Positions 3,294-13,885 of a stretch of DNA of 27,652 bases are shown in pieces. Every line of letters starts with the position of its first letter. The first letter of the stretch is position 1. This DNA comes from a virus. The notes beneath the pieces are model-generated. The model saw only the letters and a program-made list of their open reading frames with translations. It was not told the origin of the DNA and made no database searches. Made by a program: the position numbers and the translations under genes. The stretch is taken from positions 1 through 27,652 of IMG/VR virus record IMGVR_UViG_3300035659_000082. One strand, given 5' to 3'.

Positions 3294-3322
3294 TTGACAC
3301 TACGAGCCGATGGTGATACAAT
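3294..3322 (+). promoter_or_regulatory. Consensus sigma-70 promoter
   Basis: TTGACA at 3294-3299 and TACAAT at 3317-3322 are separated by exactly 17 bases. The -35 box is perfect and the -10 box has five of six consensus bases. Predicted +1 is about 3329, the first bases of the left arm of the structured leader. It should be active with host polymerase alone, which suits early expression. Confidence 0.85.
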
Positions 3323-3327
3323 ATGCC

Positions 3328-3422
3328 TGTCGAGGGAACGAACAAGCCGCCACATACCAAACTCTTTGTGCCTGATCGGGCGAACGTTCCCTCGACAAGA
3401 ACGCGGCTTCCCGGTCGGGCAC
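3328..3422 (+). ncRNA. Structured leader RNA with three mutually crossing helices, copy 1
   Basis: Three complementary pairs occur in parallel order. A is 3328-3340 with 3385-3397 (13 perfect pairs). B is 3344-3350 with 3403-3409 (7 perfect). C is 3368-3380 with 3410-3422 (13 pairs, two of them G.U). The gaps are A-3-B-17-C-4-A'-5-B'-0-C'. Every helix crosses the other two, so this is a pseudoknot, not nested hairpins. The G.U pairs point to function as RNA, not DNA. Transcription should begin at the first base of A. C' ends 20 bases before the HNH start codon and just before its ribosome site, so it may act in cis on translation or as a free RNA. The same layout with different sequence recurs at 6901-7014. 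I do not recognise it as a known RNA class. Confidence 0.72.
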
Positions 3423-3442
3423 ATTCCGTTTGGAGGTATCTG

Positions 3443-3922
3443 ATGACTCTCGAAGAACGGTTTTGGTCGCATGTCAAGAAGGGCGGTCCTGATGAATGCT
3501 GGGAATGCTCAGGTTCCCCGGGACCGGGTGGCTACGGCCGCATTACGATTGGACGAAAAAACATTGCGGCACACCGGATGGCATATCAACTCGCAGTTGG
3601 TCCCATCCCCGACCGTCTCTACATATTGCACTCGTGCGACAATCGAAGGTGCTGCAACCCCGCACATCTACATCCAGGGACTCACCGAGAGAATGCGCGC
3701 GAGGCGGTGGATAGGCTCGGCATGAATTGCGGGGAGCGCAACGGTCAGGCGAAGTTGACCCCTGCGGATGTCCTCGCTATCTGCCAACTCTACGTCCCCA
3801 GGCGCGTAACCTATCGAGAACTGGCGAGCCGATTCGGAGTCTGCCCGATGCAGGTATGTCGGATTGTCCAGGGCGAACGGTGGGCGCGGGTAACCAAGGT
3901 GGCGCATGTGGCCACACGCTGA
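3443..3922 (+). CDS. HNH endonuclease, homing-type, with C-terminal helix-turn-helix
   Basis: A 159-residue HNH_3-type nuclease like the free-standing homing endonucleases found in phages. The core LHSCDNRRCCNPAHL at residues 62-76 supplies the HNH residues (H63, N72, H75) together with cysteines. The upstream YGRITIGRKN..AHRMAYQL strand-helix is typical. The C-terminal part (residues about 107-150, TPADVLAIC...TYRELASRFGV) is a DNA-binding helix-turn-helix. The ATG at 3443 follows TGGAGG; longer in-frame starts would lie in the structured leader. It is expected to cut or nick DNA at a recognised site. It has its own promoter and leader, which suggests an independently acquired unit. Confidence 0.85.
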   Translation: MTLEERFWSHVKKGGPDECWECSGSPGPGGYGRITIGRKNIAAHRMAYQLAVGPIPDRLYILHSCDNRRCCNPAHLHPGTHRENAREAVDRLGMNCGERNGQAKLTPADVLAICQLYVPRRVTYRELASRFGVCPMQVCRIVQGERWARVTKVAHVATR

Positions 3923-4142
3923 CCCCGGAGCCTCCTGGGAGCCTGTGGGTGCCGGTTGGTGGCTCTACACGAAATCTGATGGCGAAGGATATGTCGTCAA
4001 GGGGTTCGACGGGCAATGCAGTTGCTTTGGCTATAAGCGATGGGCGCACTGCAAGCATATTGATTGGCTGGAGGAATATTATGAACAACGGAGATACGAG
4101 CAAGGCGCTCGCGCCGCGCGAAAACGCGGACGAGCTGCGTAG
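3906..4142 (+). CDS. SWIM-type zinc-finger protein
   Basis: A 78-residue protein with the SWIM pattern CxCx(n)CxH in CSCFGYKRWAHCKHI (residues about 38-52), preceded by the usual strand GYVVKGFDGQ. SWIM fingers bind DNA or proteins and occur in recombination-associated factors. The C-terminus is strongly basic. It overlaps the HNH gene by 17 bases and the next gene by 62. The neighbours (directionality factor, Gam-like protein) suggest a role in recombination; that is inference. Confidence 0.75.
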   Translation: MWPHADPGASWEPVGAGWWLYTKSDGEGYVVKGFDGQCSCFGYKRWAHCKHIDWLEEYYEQRRYEQGARAARKRGRAA

Positions 4143-5343
4143 CAGGATAGAATCAGAAGTGCCGGCGTTGGTCGGCGGATTCCAACTGGGACCGCGCCGG
4201 CTGGCGAGGGTTGGAAAATTGCATCTGGGCTACAAGGTGAGTCAGGTGCGAGCCTCGGACGGCAAAGAAGTCACCTACCCGAAGGAGTGTAGTTGGTTCG
4301 TCTTCGAGGACTCCGAGGTCGAGGCGGCCCTGGTCGCCGCGGCCAAAACCTCGGATGTTGTCGAGGTAGATGGCGCCGCGCATGTCACGGCACTGGAGAT
4401 CATCTTCCCCCTGAACATTATCAAGGAGAACGCGGAGGTAGTCTTCGCGCAATACAACAGCAAACGCCAATGCCTCTGCACGAGCAGGGATGGCGTGACC
4501 GCCCGGCAGATGAACCCAGAGACGGGGAAGATCACGGAGATTCCGTGCCTCAACGAGCAATGCCCGAAACGGCAGACGACTGAGAAGAAGCGGGCCGATT
4601 GCTCGGAGGTCATGCGGATGAGATTCATCATCCCCTCTATCCCGCCCCTGGGCGTTTGGCAACTCGACACTGGTTCTACCTGGTCCAAGAACAGCGTGCT
4701 CGGGTATATGCGCACGCTGCAAGCGGAGATCACTTGCGGGCAACTCTCCGGTATCCGGCTGAGGCTGTCCCGTGCCTCGCAGATGATCCCGGACAAGAAC
4801 ACAAAGCGGCTCCAACAGCACTGGCCCCTTCACCTCGTGGCCAACATCAGCTACGACAACTACGCGGAGACACTGGCCAAGGCAAGGGCGATGACCTATA
4901 AGCCGGAGGATGTTGAAGAGTTCGACGAGGAGCCGGACGAGACCATCGTCCCGACGAACGGCGATGGTGTGATAGTTGACCCGGAGAGTGGCGAGATCCT
5001 GCTTCCCGAGGAACAGCCGATGGACGCGGAATTCACACCCGCCGGTGAACCCGAGGATGAACCCGTGGGCGAGCCGCCAGCACCAGCACCCGCGGTGGAA
5101 CCCAAGCCGCCGGGAGACAAACCCACCAACAACGAGCAGGTTAATGTCATCCTCGGATTGGCCGAGCGAGTCTGGACCGACCGGGAGACGGCGGCGAGCG
5201 AGTTCAAAGCGTGGCTCGCGCAATCGTTCGATGGTGCGGAGACCGTACGCCAGTTGACCTACCAGCAGGCGATGCGCGCCATCGCTGGCCTGCAGAAGAT
5301 ACTAAACGATCGGGCGAGAGCCGGGAAAGGGGCAAAGCGATGA
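4081..5343 (+). CDS. phiC31 Gp3-like recombination directionality factor family protein
   Basis: A 420-residue protein. The N-terminal 300 residues follow the Gp3-like family: RRLARVGKLHLGYK near residue 40, a KEVTYPKECSWFVF strand, an FPLNI...FAQY segment, a cysteine cluster (QCLC, PCLNEQC, ADC), FIIPSIPPLGVWQLDTGS and IRLRLS. In phiC31, Gp3 binds the serine integrase and switches it to excision; many lytic phages carry relatives of unknown role. An acidic, proline-rich linker is followed by a C-terminal helical domain (NNEQVNVILGLAERVW...LTYQQAMRAIAGL) like those at the ends of phage recombination proteins. GGAGG precedes the ATG at 4081. The frame is open further upstream, but that part overlaps HNH and SWIM and is not protein-like. 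Confidence 0.72.
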   Translation: MNNGDTSKALAPRENADELRSRIESEVPALVGGFQLGPRRLARVGKLHLGYKVSQVRASDGKEVTYPKECSWFVFEDSEVEAALVAAAKTSDVVEVDGAAHVTALEIIFPLNIIKENAEVVFAQYNSKRQCLCTSRDGVTARQMNPETGKITEIPCLNEQCPKRQTTEKKRADCSEVMRMRFIIPSIPPLGVWQLDTGSTWSKNSVLGYMRTLQAEITCGQLSGIRLRLSRASQMIPDKNTKRLQQHWPLHLVANISYDNYAETLAKARAMTYKPEDVEEFDEEPDETIVPTNGDGVIVDPESGEILLPEEQPMDAEFTPAGEPEDEPVGEPPAPAPAVEPKPPGDKPTNNEQVNVILGLAERVWTDRETAASEFKAWLAQSFDGAETVRQLTYQQAMRAIAGLQKILNDRARAGKGAKR

Positions 5344-6626: not shown

Positions 6627-6892
6627 TGGGCATCGTAACCCGAATCCAATGCGATGTTTGCGGCGAGGAGGTGCCACCGGGCGGGATCTACCTCGCCATA
6701 AACCGAACGATGGTGGCGGAGATGCCTGCCGGCTCGGGGTCGGGCAGGATCGTCATTGATGATCTCGAAGAGCCAGTCCAGGTCTGTGGCCAGAAGTGTT
6801 ATCACCAGTGGCACGCGCGGAAACTGGCGGAGTTCTACGAGCCGAAGCGGGAGTCTGAAAAAGCGCTTGACAGGGGTGCCGTGGCGGAGTAG
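6626..6892 (+). CDS. Small zinc-knuckle protein
   Basis: An 88-residue protein starting in a TGATG overlap. CDVCGEEV near the N-terminus and VCGQKCYHQWHARKL near residue 55 make a treble-clef-like pair of knuckles, as in small phage zinc proteins. Its last codons contain the -35 region and stop of the second strong promoter, so transcription of the next unit starts inside this gene's end. Confidence 0.68.
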   Translation: MGIVTRIQCDVCGEEVPPGGIYLAINRTMVAEMPAGSGSGRIVIDDLEEPVQVCGQKCYHQWHARKLAEFYEPKRESEKALDRGAVAE

Positions 6893-6895
6893 AAT
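6867..6895 (+). promoter_or_regulatory. Consensus sigma-70 promoter
   Basis: TTGACA at 6867-6872 and TAGAAT at 6890-6895 are separated by exactly 17 bases, the same design as the promoter at 3294. Predicted +1 is about 6901-6902, which is the first base of the left arm of the second structured leader. The promoter overlaps the end of the preceding gene. Confidence 0.85.
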
Positions 6896-6900
6896 GGGGA

Positions 6901-7014
6901 TGGTAAGATCACGATGATAGACAGACGGGTAGCAAACTGCATAACGACACCCCCAGTGCCGGGATTCCAGACTCGTGATCTTACCAATTACCTGTCTGTC
7001 GGAGTTCCGGCACT
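6901..7014 (+). ncRNA. Structured leader RNA with three mutually crossing helices, copy 2
   Basis: The architecture matches 3328-3422, with unrelated sequence in the helices. A is 6901-6914 with 6973-6986 (14 perfect pairs). B is 6920-6931 with 6989-7000 (12 pairs, one G.U). C is 6955-6968 with 7001-7014 (14 pairs, two G.U). The gaps are A-5-B-23-C-4-A'-2-B'-0-C'. The 4-base C-A' gap and the zero B'-C' gap are identical to copy 1. The single-stranded segment between B and C carries CAAACT in both copies (3358-3363 and 6933-6938). C' ends 29 bases before the ATG of the PD-(D/E)XK gene, whose ribosome site lies between them. Two copies with the same fold and different bases are covariation-type support for an RNA structure. 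Confidence 0.72.
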
Positions 7015-7043
7015 TACTTTTGTACGGGGACAAGGAGCCACGG

Positions 7044-7583
7044 ATGGCTGTCAACATCTCCAAGTTTAGTATCCCGACGGAGTTCAACGGCATCCGTTTT
7101 CGCAGTAAGTTGGAAGCAGATTGGGCGGCCTTCTTCGAGCGACACCGAATCATCTACGCCTTCGAGCCGGAGGGATTCGATCTTGACGGTGTGTATTACC
7201 TCCCGGACTTTTGGCTGCCCCGACTCCGCACGTTCGTCGAAATCAAGGGTTGCCTGGACGGGAACGACGAAGCAAAGCTCGAAGCGCTGGCGCGGCACTG
7301 CGCCGATCCGCACGATTGGGAGGATAAGCGCCCACTCCTGATTCTTGCCGAAGCGCCGGTTGGTGAGGAGTTCACGAATCCCTATTGTTCTCCTTCCGGC
7401 TTCTACATCATCTCACGCCGCGCCGGATTGTACCAGTGTCGGAGATGCGGCAACTGGTGGTTCGCGAATCCTTCGGGGCCGCTCAAGTGCCGCGCCTGCG
7501 GCGAGTGGCGGAGTGACGACCACATAACACGGATACACGGATACCACGCCTGCCCGGATTGCGAGGCGCTCTGCGATGCCTGA
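7044..7583 (+). CDS. PD-(D/E)XK nuclease with C-terminal zinc ribbon
   Basis: A 179-residue protein. Residues 17-68 carry the nuclease core in order: FRSKLEADWA (E24), YLPDFWL (D55) and FVEIKG (E66, K68). This is the E-D-ExK arrangement of phage and T7 endonuclease I/Holliday-resolvase-type PD-(D/E)XK enzymes. Cysteine pairs CRRCG, CRACG and CPDC in residues about 131-175 form a zinc ribbon, presumably for DNA binding. AAGGAG precedes the ATG at 7044. It has its own promoter and structured leader and overlaps the primase gene by 8 bases, so the same transcript should continue into the primase. A replication or recombination nuclease, or a mobile endonuclease, are both possible. Confidence 0.78.
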   Translation: MAVNISKFSIPTEFNGIRFRSKLEADWAAFFERHRIIYAFEPEGFDLDGVYYLPDFWLPRLRTFVEIKGCLDGNDEAKLEALARHCADPHDWEDKRPLLILAEAPVGEEFTNPYCSPSGFYIISRRAGLYQCRRCGNWWFANPSGPLKCRACGEWRSDDHITRIHGYHACPDCEALCDA

Positions 7584-12182: not shown

Positions 12183-12494
12183 ATGGCTCTAAACAAGACT
12201 GGGATTGAATATTTGGATCGGAGCTGGAACCCTGCCCACGGCTGCACCAGGGGTTGTGGCTATTGTTGGGCAGCGAAGATGGCGAAGCGCCTGGCGGCGA
12301 TGGGTGTGCGCGGATACGATCCGGCTGACCCGATGAGACCGACGGTGCACCACGAACGATTGCAGGAACCAGCTCGGCTGAATAAGGCGTCATGTATCGG
12401 CGTCGGGTTCATGGGTGATTTGTTTGATCCGGCGTTTTCCGACGAGATCATCTGGCAGGCAGTAGTGGAGGAAATAACGGAGATACGCCCATGA
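12183..12494 (+). pseudogene. N-terminal piece of a Gp37/Gp68 (DUF5131) gene
   Basis: A 103-residue frame behind GAAGGAGGGAG. It matches the start of the phage Gp37/Gp68 family: TGIEYLDRSWNPAHGCTRGC, the CxxxCxxC radical-SAM-like cluster (CTRGCGYC), AKMAKRLAAMG, DPMRPTVHHERL and CIGVGFMGDLFD. Full-length relatives are about twice as long and continue with a FLTKRP-type motif. Here the frame stops at ITEIRP, exactly where the next gene's ATG begins (ATGA overlap). The missing C-terminus reappears downstream at 13158-13280 in the same phase. The fragment keeps the metal cluster and a good ribosome site, so a short product may still be made. Confidence 0.78.
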
Positions 12495-13885
12495 GGCTGC
12501 TCGATCTCTTCTGCGGAGCTGGTGGCGCAGCCAAGGGATACCAACGTGCGGGATTCTATGTCGTCGGCGTAGATAATCGCCCTCAACCACGCTACTGCGG
12601 AGATGAGTTCTACCAGGCCGACGCCCTGGAGTTCGTGGCCGAGCACGGTAAGGAGTTCGACGTGATCCACGCGAGTCCGCCGTGCCAGGCATACAGCCGG
12701 ATATCCGGCAGATGTCGCAAGGCGGGCAGGAGGATATACCCGGAGGTTATAGAGGCGACGCGACAGGCGCTCAGGTGTGTTGGCGTGATCTACGTCATTG
12801 AGAACGTGCCGGAAGCCCCGCTGGAGCGGTCTCTGGTCCTCTGTGGCTCCTCCTTCGGGCTGGATGTGCGTCGCCACAGGGTCTTCGAGTCAAACGTTCT
12901 GATGCTGGCGCCAGTGTGCGAGCACTCAAGGCAGTCGCCTCGGTTCCGTACGTTGGACAACCGGCGCAAGGGCAGGCTGGCGTGCGTGGTGGGCGTTCAC
13001 GGGCATGTCAACTATAAGGGCGAAGCTAGATTGCGCGAGGGCGCTATGGGCGTTGACTGGATGACGGTAGCCGAACTAGCCCAAGCGATCCCGCCAGCGT
13101 ATACCGAGTTTATCGGCAAGCAACTGATGGCTATGCTCGACACAACCGAACAACCCGCCGGACTCGTGGTGGGTGAAGACACTGATCGGATACGCGAGGA
13201 AGGAGGGGATTCCCGTCTTCCTGAAGCCCAACGCCAACTATCGCGAGATGATCCAGGAGTTCCCGGAGGCACAGCGATGAGCACGGTTATCCTTGGCCTC
13301 GACCCCGGCGCCAGTACCGGATTCGCCAAATGCACCTTCCAGGGCGAGACCGTGACGATACTCGACTATGGAATCGTGCCTATGCCTGGTGATGATGTGG
13401 CCTCGCTGGCGAGAGGGATCTCCTGGTGGATTCAGCATAACCACCTGCCCGGGCTCACGATGGTCTTCAGCGAGATTCCCTATCTGCCGAAGCGCCGGAC
13501 CCATCTCCCTTCTGTCGAGGTCCAGGGCGTGATCCGGGCAGCCGGCGGGATCGGTTACAATCCGATGACCATCCACTCGCAGCTCGGGACCAGGCGTAAG
13601 GCGGACACAAAGGCATTCGTCAAGCGCGTGCTTGGCTTCTCCCCGACGGGGATTGACCACATAGCCGATGCCTTCGCCGTCTGCTTCTGCCACGCGCTGA
13701 AGATCGGAGTCTGGCAGCCGCATCTGAAGGCGGCGCCGGTGAAAACTCACCAGCCTGGTTTCAAGGCCGGCCGAGCCCGCGGAGAGCGTGAGCCAGTGAA
13801 AACTCACCAGGAGGATATGACGCAGGAGGAACTGCGCGAGGCATTATTCAGCGGAGAGGCGAGAGTGGCGGGTGGAGGGCGATAG
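12491..13885 (+). CDS. C5-cytosine DNA methyltransferase, reading in frame into RuvC-like resolvase
   Basis: A 464-residue open frame. Residues 1-216 are a compact but complete C5 methyltransferase: LFCGAGG (motif I), SPPCQ with catalytic C65 (motif IV), ENV at 104-106 (motif VI), RRHRVF near 127 (motif VIII), a short target-recognition region, and IPPAYTEFIGKQL (motif X). A natural end is expected near residue 217. Instead the frame runs through about 46 residues that look like out-of-frame sequence and then into the resolvase at 13277. The joining stretch is the remnant of the Gp37/Gp68 C-terminus read in the wrong frame. Either a fusion protein is made or the resolvase is started separately. 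The ATG overlaps the Gp37/Gp68 fragment's stop and has only a GGAG-type site. Confidence 0.82.
   Translation: MRLLDLFCGAGGAAKGYQRAGFYVVGVDNRPQPRYCGDEFYQADALEFVAEHGKEFDVIHASPPCQAYSRISGRCRKAGRRIYPEVIEATRQALRCVGVIYVIENVPEAPLERSLVLCGSSFGLDVRRHRVFESNVLMLAPVCEHSRQSPRFRTLDNRRKGRLACVVGVHGHVNYKGEARLREGAMGVDWMTVAELAQAIPPAYTEFIGKQLMAMLDTTEQPAGLVVGEDTDRIREEGGDSRLPEAQRQLSRDDPGVPGGTAMSTVILGLDPGASTGFAKCTFQGETVTILDYGIVPMPGDDVASLARGISWWIQHNHLPGLTMVFSEIPYLPKRRTHLPSVEVQGVIRAAGGIGYNPMTIHSQLGTRRKADTKAFVKRVLGFSPTGIDHIADAFAVCFCHALKIGVWQPHLKAAPVKTHQPGFKAGRARGEREPVKTHQEDMTQEELREALFSGEARVAGGGR
13158..13280 (+). pseudogene. C-terminal remnant of the split Gp37/Gp68 (DUF5131) gene
   Basis: In the phase of the 12183 fragment, and different from the methyltransferase frame, this stretch reads PPDSWWVKTLIGYARKEG, then IPVFLKPNANYREMIQEFPE and a stop at 13278-13280. 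The pattern W...(I/L)...R..G(I/V)PVF.K......EFP is the usual end of Gp37/Gp68 proteins. There is no start codon of its own, and a stop lies at 13125-13127 in this phase. Homology appears to begin near 13140, just after the methyltransferase's expected end. The TGA overlaps the ATG of the resolvase, as expected of the original gene order. Confidence 0.75.
13277..13885 (+). CDS. RuvC-like Holliday-junction resolvase
   Basis: A 202-residue protein starting at an internal ATG with GGAGG 8 bases upstream. It has the RNase-H-like catalytic set of phage RuvC relatives: GLDPGASTGFA (D9), VFSEIPYLP (E66) and GIDHIADAFAV (D127/D131 with H128). These enzymes cut four-way DNA junctions before packaging or during recombination. 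The start overlaps the stop of the Gp37/Gp68 remnant (ATGA), so separate translation is likely even though the upstream methyltransferase frame runs in without a stop. The basic C-terminal tail contains a repeated PVKTHQ. Confidence 0.78.
   Translation: MSTVILGLDPGASTGFAKCTFQGETVTILDYGIVPMPGDDVASLARGISWWIQHNHLPGLTMVFSEIPYLPKRRTHLPSVEVQGVIRAAGGIGYNPMTIHSQLGTRRKADTKAFVKRVLGFSPTGIDHIADAFAVCFCHALKIGVWQPHLKAAPVKTHQPGFKAGRARGEREPVKTHQEDMTQEELREALFSGEARVAGGGR
13739..13810 (+). repeat. 15-base direct repeat, each copy self-complementary
   Basis: GTGAAAACTCACCAG occurs at 13739-13753 and 13796-13810, encoding VKTHQ twice in the resolvase tail. Each copy also forms a small GTGA/TCAC hairpin. The in-frame spacing of 57 bases and repeated peptide suggest a short internal duplication. 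Confidence 0.6.

Follow-up and report, generated by a model that had tools for sequence, protein, structure and literature searches.

Two copies of a crossed three-helix RNA element at the predicted 5′ ends of phage mRNAs

The sequence studied here is an uncultivated phage contig of 27,652 nt (IMG/VR record IMGVR_UViG_3300035659_000082; this whole stretch is called the window below). It carries two copies of one structured RNA element, which most likely represent the extreme 5′ ends of two phage mRNAs. This position is indicated because a predicted promoter sits 5 nt upstream of each fold, and each fold ends before a Shine-Dalgarno sequence and an ATG. The pairing segments of both copies follow one another as A B C A′ B′ C′, with every helix crossing the other two.

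Results

Anatomy of the two copies

The initial annotation had proposed three helices of 14, 12, and 14 bp within positions 6901–7014 (copy 2), and these were reproduced base for base. Copy 1, whose coordinates that annotation did not give, was found independently at positions 3328–3423. Copies 2 and 1 thus span 114 and 96 nt, respectively, and comprise the following parts:

3328–3340/3385–3397, plus strand: copy 1 helix A, 13 bp
3344–3350/3403–3409, plus strand: copy 1 helix B, 7 bp
3367–3380/3410–3423, plus strand: copy 1 helix C, 14 bp including two G-U pairs
3357–3362/3428–3433, plus strand: copy 1, tentative helix D (CCAAAC/GUUUGG), weak (−5.3 kcal/mol), overlapping the Shine-Dalgarno sequence GGAGG at 3432–3436
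6901–6914/6973–6986, plus strand: copy 2 helix A, 14 bp, no G-U pairs
6920–6931/6989–7000, plus strand: copy 2 helix B, 12 bp including one G-U pair, or 13 bp with a terminal G-U pair (6932/6988)
6955–6968/7001–7014, plus strand: copy 2 helix C, 14 bp including two G-U pairs
6932–6936/7019–7023, plus strand: copy 2, tentative helix D (GCAAA/UUUGU), weak (about −1.4 kcal/mol)
3358–3363 and 6933–6938, plus strand: the hexamer CAAACT in the B-C loop of copies 1 and 2, respectively

With copy 1 located, the equal spacing claimed previously was borne out: the gap between C and A′ measures 4 nt and that between B′ and C′ 0 nt in both copies, and CAAACT indeed lies between B and C in each. The helix sequences are unrelated, as had been noted, and a BLAST search of copy 2 against the contig returned copy 2 alone. 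The linker between A and B is 3 or 5 nt long in the two copies. At their inner ends, A, B, and C converge on a three-way junction in both, and the 0-nt joint between B′ and C′ suggests that B stacks end to end on C. The stretch leading from A′ to C′ (12 nt in copy 1 and 14 nt in copy 2) nearly matches helix A in length (13 and 14 bp). The B-C loop comprises 16 nt next to the 7-bp helix B of copy 1, and 22 nt next to the 13-bp form of helix B in copy 2. Computed energies were approximately −22 to −26 kcal/mol for helices A and C, and −11 and −20 kcal/mol for the two B helices. Nested folding retained helix A in three out of four runs and helix C in the remaining one.

We also noted an alternative, terminator-like hairpin at 6997–7012, drawing on the 3′ portion of B′ and the 5′ portion of C′, with CTTACTTTTG after it. 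In copy 2, this hairpin and the fold would be in competition; none was reported at copy 1, and a single such hairpin is within chance expectation.

Chance expectation and strand

In a search of the window for mutually crossing triples, each helix having 9 bp or more, the segment 6901–7014 came out best. With shorter helices, and with gap limits set around the two copies, copy 1 was the only other comparable site in the window. For scoring we used an explicit three-helix scanner, which is more specific than a covariance model; covariance models cannot represent crossing helices. The scanner scores pairs by their strength and allows generous gaps, whose limits were chosen post hoc from the two copies and therefore somewhat favor them. 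The copies scored 96.8 and 87.4. When the whole window was dinucleotide-shuffled 240 times and searched on both strands, the top score was 72.3 and the median best score 55.5; among 20,000 local shuffles, none reached a score of 85 for either copy. The margin over the shuffles is large despite the post hoc gap limits. Crossed triples of this score thus never arose under shuffling, the check that the initial annotation had suggested.

The real complementary strand reached a top score of only 54.2 and held no comparable triple. Across both copies, six of the 75 pairs are G-U, on the strand that the predicted promoters transcribe; on the opposite strand they would become A-C and break the helices there. 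The lack of other mismatches arises partly by construction, the helices having been defined as unbroken runs. Taken alone, the strand asymmetry of the five internal G-U cases corresponds to approximately 1 in 32, and the placement of the promoters is the stronger argument for RNA.

Predicted promoters and downstream genes

Both copies are embedded between a predicted promoter and a gene, as follows:

3294–3322, plus strand: predicted sigma70-type promoter of copy 1 (TTGACA-17-TACAAT, 11 of 12 consensus positions)
3432–3436, plus strand: Shine-Dalgarno sequence GGAGG of the gene downstream of copy 1
3443–3922, plus strand: HNH_3 endonuclease gene downstream of copy 1 (159 aa, no RuvC domain)
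6867–6895, plus strand: predicted sigma70-type promoter of copy 2 (TTGACA-17-TAGAAT, 11 of 12)
7032–7037, plus strand: Shine-Dalgarno sequence AAGGAG of the gene downstream of copy 2, read from the sequence
7044–7583, plus strand: gene for a PD-(D/E)XK or Holliday-junction-resolvase-like nuclease downstream of copy 2

Helix A starts exactly 5 nt past the −10 box in both copies. On the plus strand of the 27.6-kb window, the two sites preceding the copies are the only ones matching at least 10 of 12 positions; counting both strands there are three, the third being a minus-strand site with no fold downstream. Transcripts usually start approximately 7 nt past the −10 box; in both copies this is the second nucleotide of helix A, a G. 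From the end of the fold, the ATG follows after 19 nt (copy 1) or 29 nt (copy 2), each with a Shine-Dalgarno sequence of its own. After C′, copy 1 has no terminator and copy 2 has a weak one at most. Each copy stands at the 5′ head of a long array of genes on the same strand. These promoters and the leader position had not been part of the initial annotation, and they say most about the nature of the RNA.

Assignment of the second nuclease to the PD-(D/E)XK fold class is read from a sequence motif. A primase gene follows at 7576, and in several phages relatives of this nuclease have genes for primase, helicase, or other replication functions as neighbors. Because the relatives, as here, adjoin replication genes, it is probably an ordinary replication gene. 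A link between the element and the nuclease family was considered and rejected: 54 relatives of the HNH protein and eight phage relatives of the second nuclease lack such an element. Given this lack, and given that the second nuclease mostly adjoins replication genes in those phages, it is probably a coincidence that both copies precede nuclease genes. Two known types of system were likewise rejected. Type III toxin-antitoxin loci (ToxIN) combine tandem RNA repeats with a ToxN-type endoribonuclease; such repeats are absent, and the downstream genes resemble DNA nucleases. An IscB-associated omega-RNA (HEARO) does not agree with a 159-aa HNH_3 protein devoid of a RuvC domain, nor with the absence of an Rfam match.

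Several other features of the window were noted. Two copies of the 12-mer CCCAATTGTCAA (minus strand, TTGACAATTGGG) lie at 2882–2927, in the region of the Shine-Dalgarno sequence and first codons of an ORF at 2909. The pair overlaps a minus-strand promoter-like site (TTGACA-17-TATGAT) and could be an operator. Positions 4084–5343, in the array that follows copy 1, encode a protein carrying a Gp3-like recombination directionality factor domain (PF18897). In the ORF at 12491–13885, the N-terminal part resembles a C5 cytosine methyltransferase and the C-terminal part a RuvC-like resolvase (matches to phrog_363 and phrog_159); this single frame is either a real fusion or the result of a lost stop.

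Modeled topology of the full fold

Each helix entered the models of the copies as a rigid A-form duplex, bead chains made the connections, and excluded volume was imposed. Runs started from random configurations; knots were called by Alexander invariants of the closed chain, and the model contains no energies. Two sampling sets yielded acceptable models for copy 2 in 51 of 60 and 99 of 110 cases, and for copy 1 in 58 of 60 and 100 of 110. Among the acceptable models, 51 of 51 and 98 of 99 were knotted for copy 2, as were 54 of 58 and 92 of 100 for copy 1. The invariants were mainly those of 5_2, 7_4, and the trefoil, with 5_2 and 7_4 making up most. In a control, a nested three-way junction of similar size, 2 of 50 models were knotted. 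A single long hairpin was knotted in 5 of 11 models because the starts allow chains to cross one another, so that the absolute fractions are inflated for long free loops and it is the contrast with the nested control that counts.

According to these models, the full fold is sterically feasible with rigid helices, the route by which it would be reached lying outside the model, and the RNA would be physically knotted if all three helices form. Forming all three together requires threading of a chain end, which is a kinetic barrier. The knot would be reachable because transcription is predicted to start at helix A, leaving a free 5′ end to thread. That the leader is a natural knotted mRNA leader, i.e. 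a true topological knot with all three helices formed, we regard as doubtful, although more than a marginal prospect.

Search for further copies

Viral collections were probed with the HNH protein, the second nuclease, the primase, the terminase, the methyltransferase, a terminase alignment, and two patterns combining promoter and CAAACT; genome collections were probed with the terminase and a promoter pattern. Loci were fetched by sequence or pattern and then scanned for structure (3.4 Mb in total), a procedure that possibly excluded near relatives of the window. No third copy was detected in these 3.4 Mb of loci (for the pattern searches, among the matches listed). The only strong structural match among them (L001) was copy 2 of the window itself. 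Other matches were at background level: L170 (74.4, with DnaA-box-like repeats), L140 (70.5, repeats), L392 (70.5), and L150 (63.5). At positions 921–1013 of L170, direct and inverted TGTGGATAACTT/GTTATCCACA repeats resemble DnaA boxes, and their repetition mimics a crossed triple. One locus, L175, is a real relative (80% in the terminase and 73% in the capsid protein); its contig starts within the terminase gene, which leaves no early region for comparison. Rfam gave no match at the gathering threshold for Alpha_RBS, introns, HEARO, ribozymes, or other models, and permissive matches were mostly to microRNA hairpin models far below threshold.

The fold itself is well supported as a shared one, the two copies combining unrelated sequences with the same topology, the same junction spacing, and identically placed promoters. 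The family that the initial annotation saw implied thus holds within this contig, where there are two copies, and not beyond it, since no third member appeared in the sequence scanned. Further members in other genomes were not found among the fetched loci, an absence that is weak evidence. "Family" consequently rests on two copies in one contig, and covariation is limited to two sequences.

Discussion

The reading we favor, at somewhat less than even confidence, is that of a cis-acting leader that shields the 5′ end of the mRNA from decay and insulates the ribosome site, possibly also tuning translation. Transcription would begin at helix A from a strong host sigma70-type promoter, and the nascent 96–114 nt would adopt the interlocked ABCABC ("pseudotrefoil") fold, in which A, B, and C would join in a three-way junction and B and C could stack. 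The 5′ terminus would then be locked inside a helix of 13–14 bp. Acting in cis, the leader would protect this end from decay and keep the ribosome site clear of other structure, and it may tune translation. We infer action in cis because the element ends just before the Shine-Dalgarno sequence. Three points count against this reading: relatives of the nucleases in other phages lack such a leader, threading poses a barrier, and there is no third copy. Moreover, the present evidence does not discriminate among mRNA protection, antitermination, and protein binding.

The main rival is a put-like cis-acting antiterminator, in which the nascent RNA would fold as it emerges from RNA polymerase, bind the enzyme, and cause terminators to be ignored along long operons; we consider it unlikely but worth keeping in view. 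Phage HK022 likewise possesses a pair of such RNAs, putL and putR, which follow its two early promoters, and putL lies directly at its promoter, is approximately 70 nt long, and pairs from nucleotide 3 onward (PMC9378689). As the nearest functional precedent, they share with our element the number per phage and the position downstream of sigma70 promoters (here predicted, on a possibly incomplete contig); in our case, both copies head long same-strand arrays. However, the put RNAs consist of two stem-loops with mutually similar sequences in approximately 70 nt, whereas here three mutually crossing helices with unshared sequences occupy 96–114 nt. Between 2.8 and 8 kb of the window, only one terminator-like site was found versus 3.9 expected by chance, and a need for antitermination is therefore not evident there. 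Less probable again is a translational operator or riboswitch, in which a protein or small molecule would bind the fold and control the ribosome site. The E. coli alpha-operon leader, a complex pseudoknot adjoining the start codon and bound by ribosomal protein S4, provides a precedent for this, but it differs in that our element has no Rfam match and leaves the ribosome site outside the three main helices. In both copies, CAAA in the B-C loop is matched by UUUG 4–5 nt past C′, and in copy 1 the resulting helix D has 6 bp and covers part of the Shine-Dalgarno sequence GGAGG; in copy 2, however, it amounts to 4–5 bp and stops short of the Shine-Dalgarno sequence. Beyond CAAACT there is also no conserved unpaired core, which a ligand pocket would need.

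A slightly smaller probability still is given to the helices not coexisting, A, B, and C being used in turn (e.g. as a timing switch during transcription) or pairing between two RNA molecules. A simpler subset of helices would be kinetically easier, given that almost every model of the full fold is knotted, and the nested folding runs kept either A or C. Against this, the helices share no bases, so that exclusion is not forced, and a switch would have no need of the gap lengths (0 nt and 4 nt) that both copies share. It would be very improbable for the element to be a stable trans-acting non-coding RNA, e.g. a decoy for a host RNA-binding or defence protein, placed before genes by chance. Its compact size of approximately 100 nt and its own predicted promoter would suit such an RNA, whereas the lack of a clear terminator after C′ and the direct passage of both copies into a Shine-Dalgarno sequence and an ORF would not. 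Least probable of all, and hardly to be expected, is that the pairing is fortuitous or that the signal acts at the DNA level, for example as a binding site or cruciform. Inverted repeats do occur as DNA features too, but the outcome of both the local and the whole-window shuffles, the fixed 5-nt promoter offset, and the absence of a comparable triple on the other strand all speak against it.

The pairing order itself is familiar. ABCABC is a known topological class, the pseudotrefoil, with 51 RNAs of a mean length of approximately 74 nt in RNA STRAND (PMC3390330). It is identical to the pairing potential of both copies, a likeness of topology only, as the class is not a family. Natural RNA was long considered free of knots, and the bacterial small RNA RydC, whose solved structure contains a trefoil, was recently reported as the first exception (PMC11218946). 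RydC differs from the present element in being a small RNA with a trefoil, whereas our invariants are mostly 5_2 and 7_4 and come from models. Structured mRNA leaders and the ABCABC topology are thus already known, and natural RNA knots are nearly unknown.

Two copies with unrelated sequences, both knotted in models, would make the evolutionary use of RNA knots testable on an RNA of approximately 100 nt in vitro. If the leader is truly knotted, the knot may serve as a mechanical cap against nucleases or act on the polymerase, and knotted leaders would form a structural class new among cis-acting phage RNAs. If the cis-acting leader reading is correct, the element would represent a new way for phages to control their own mRNAs.
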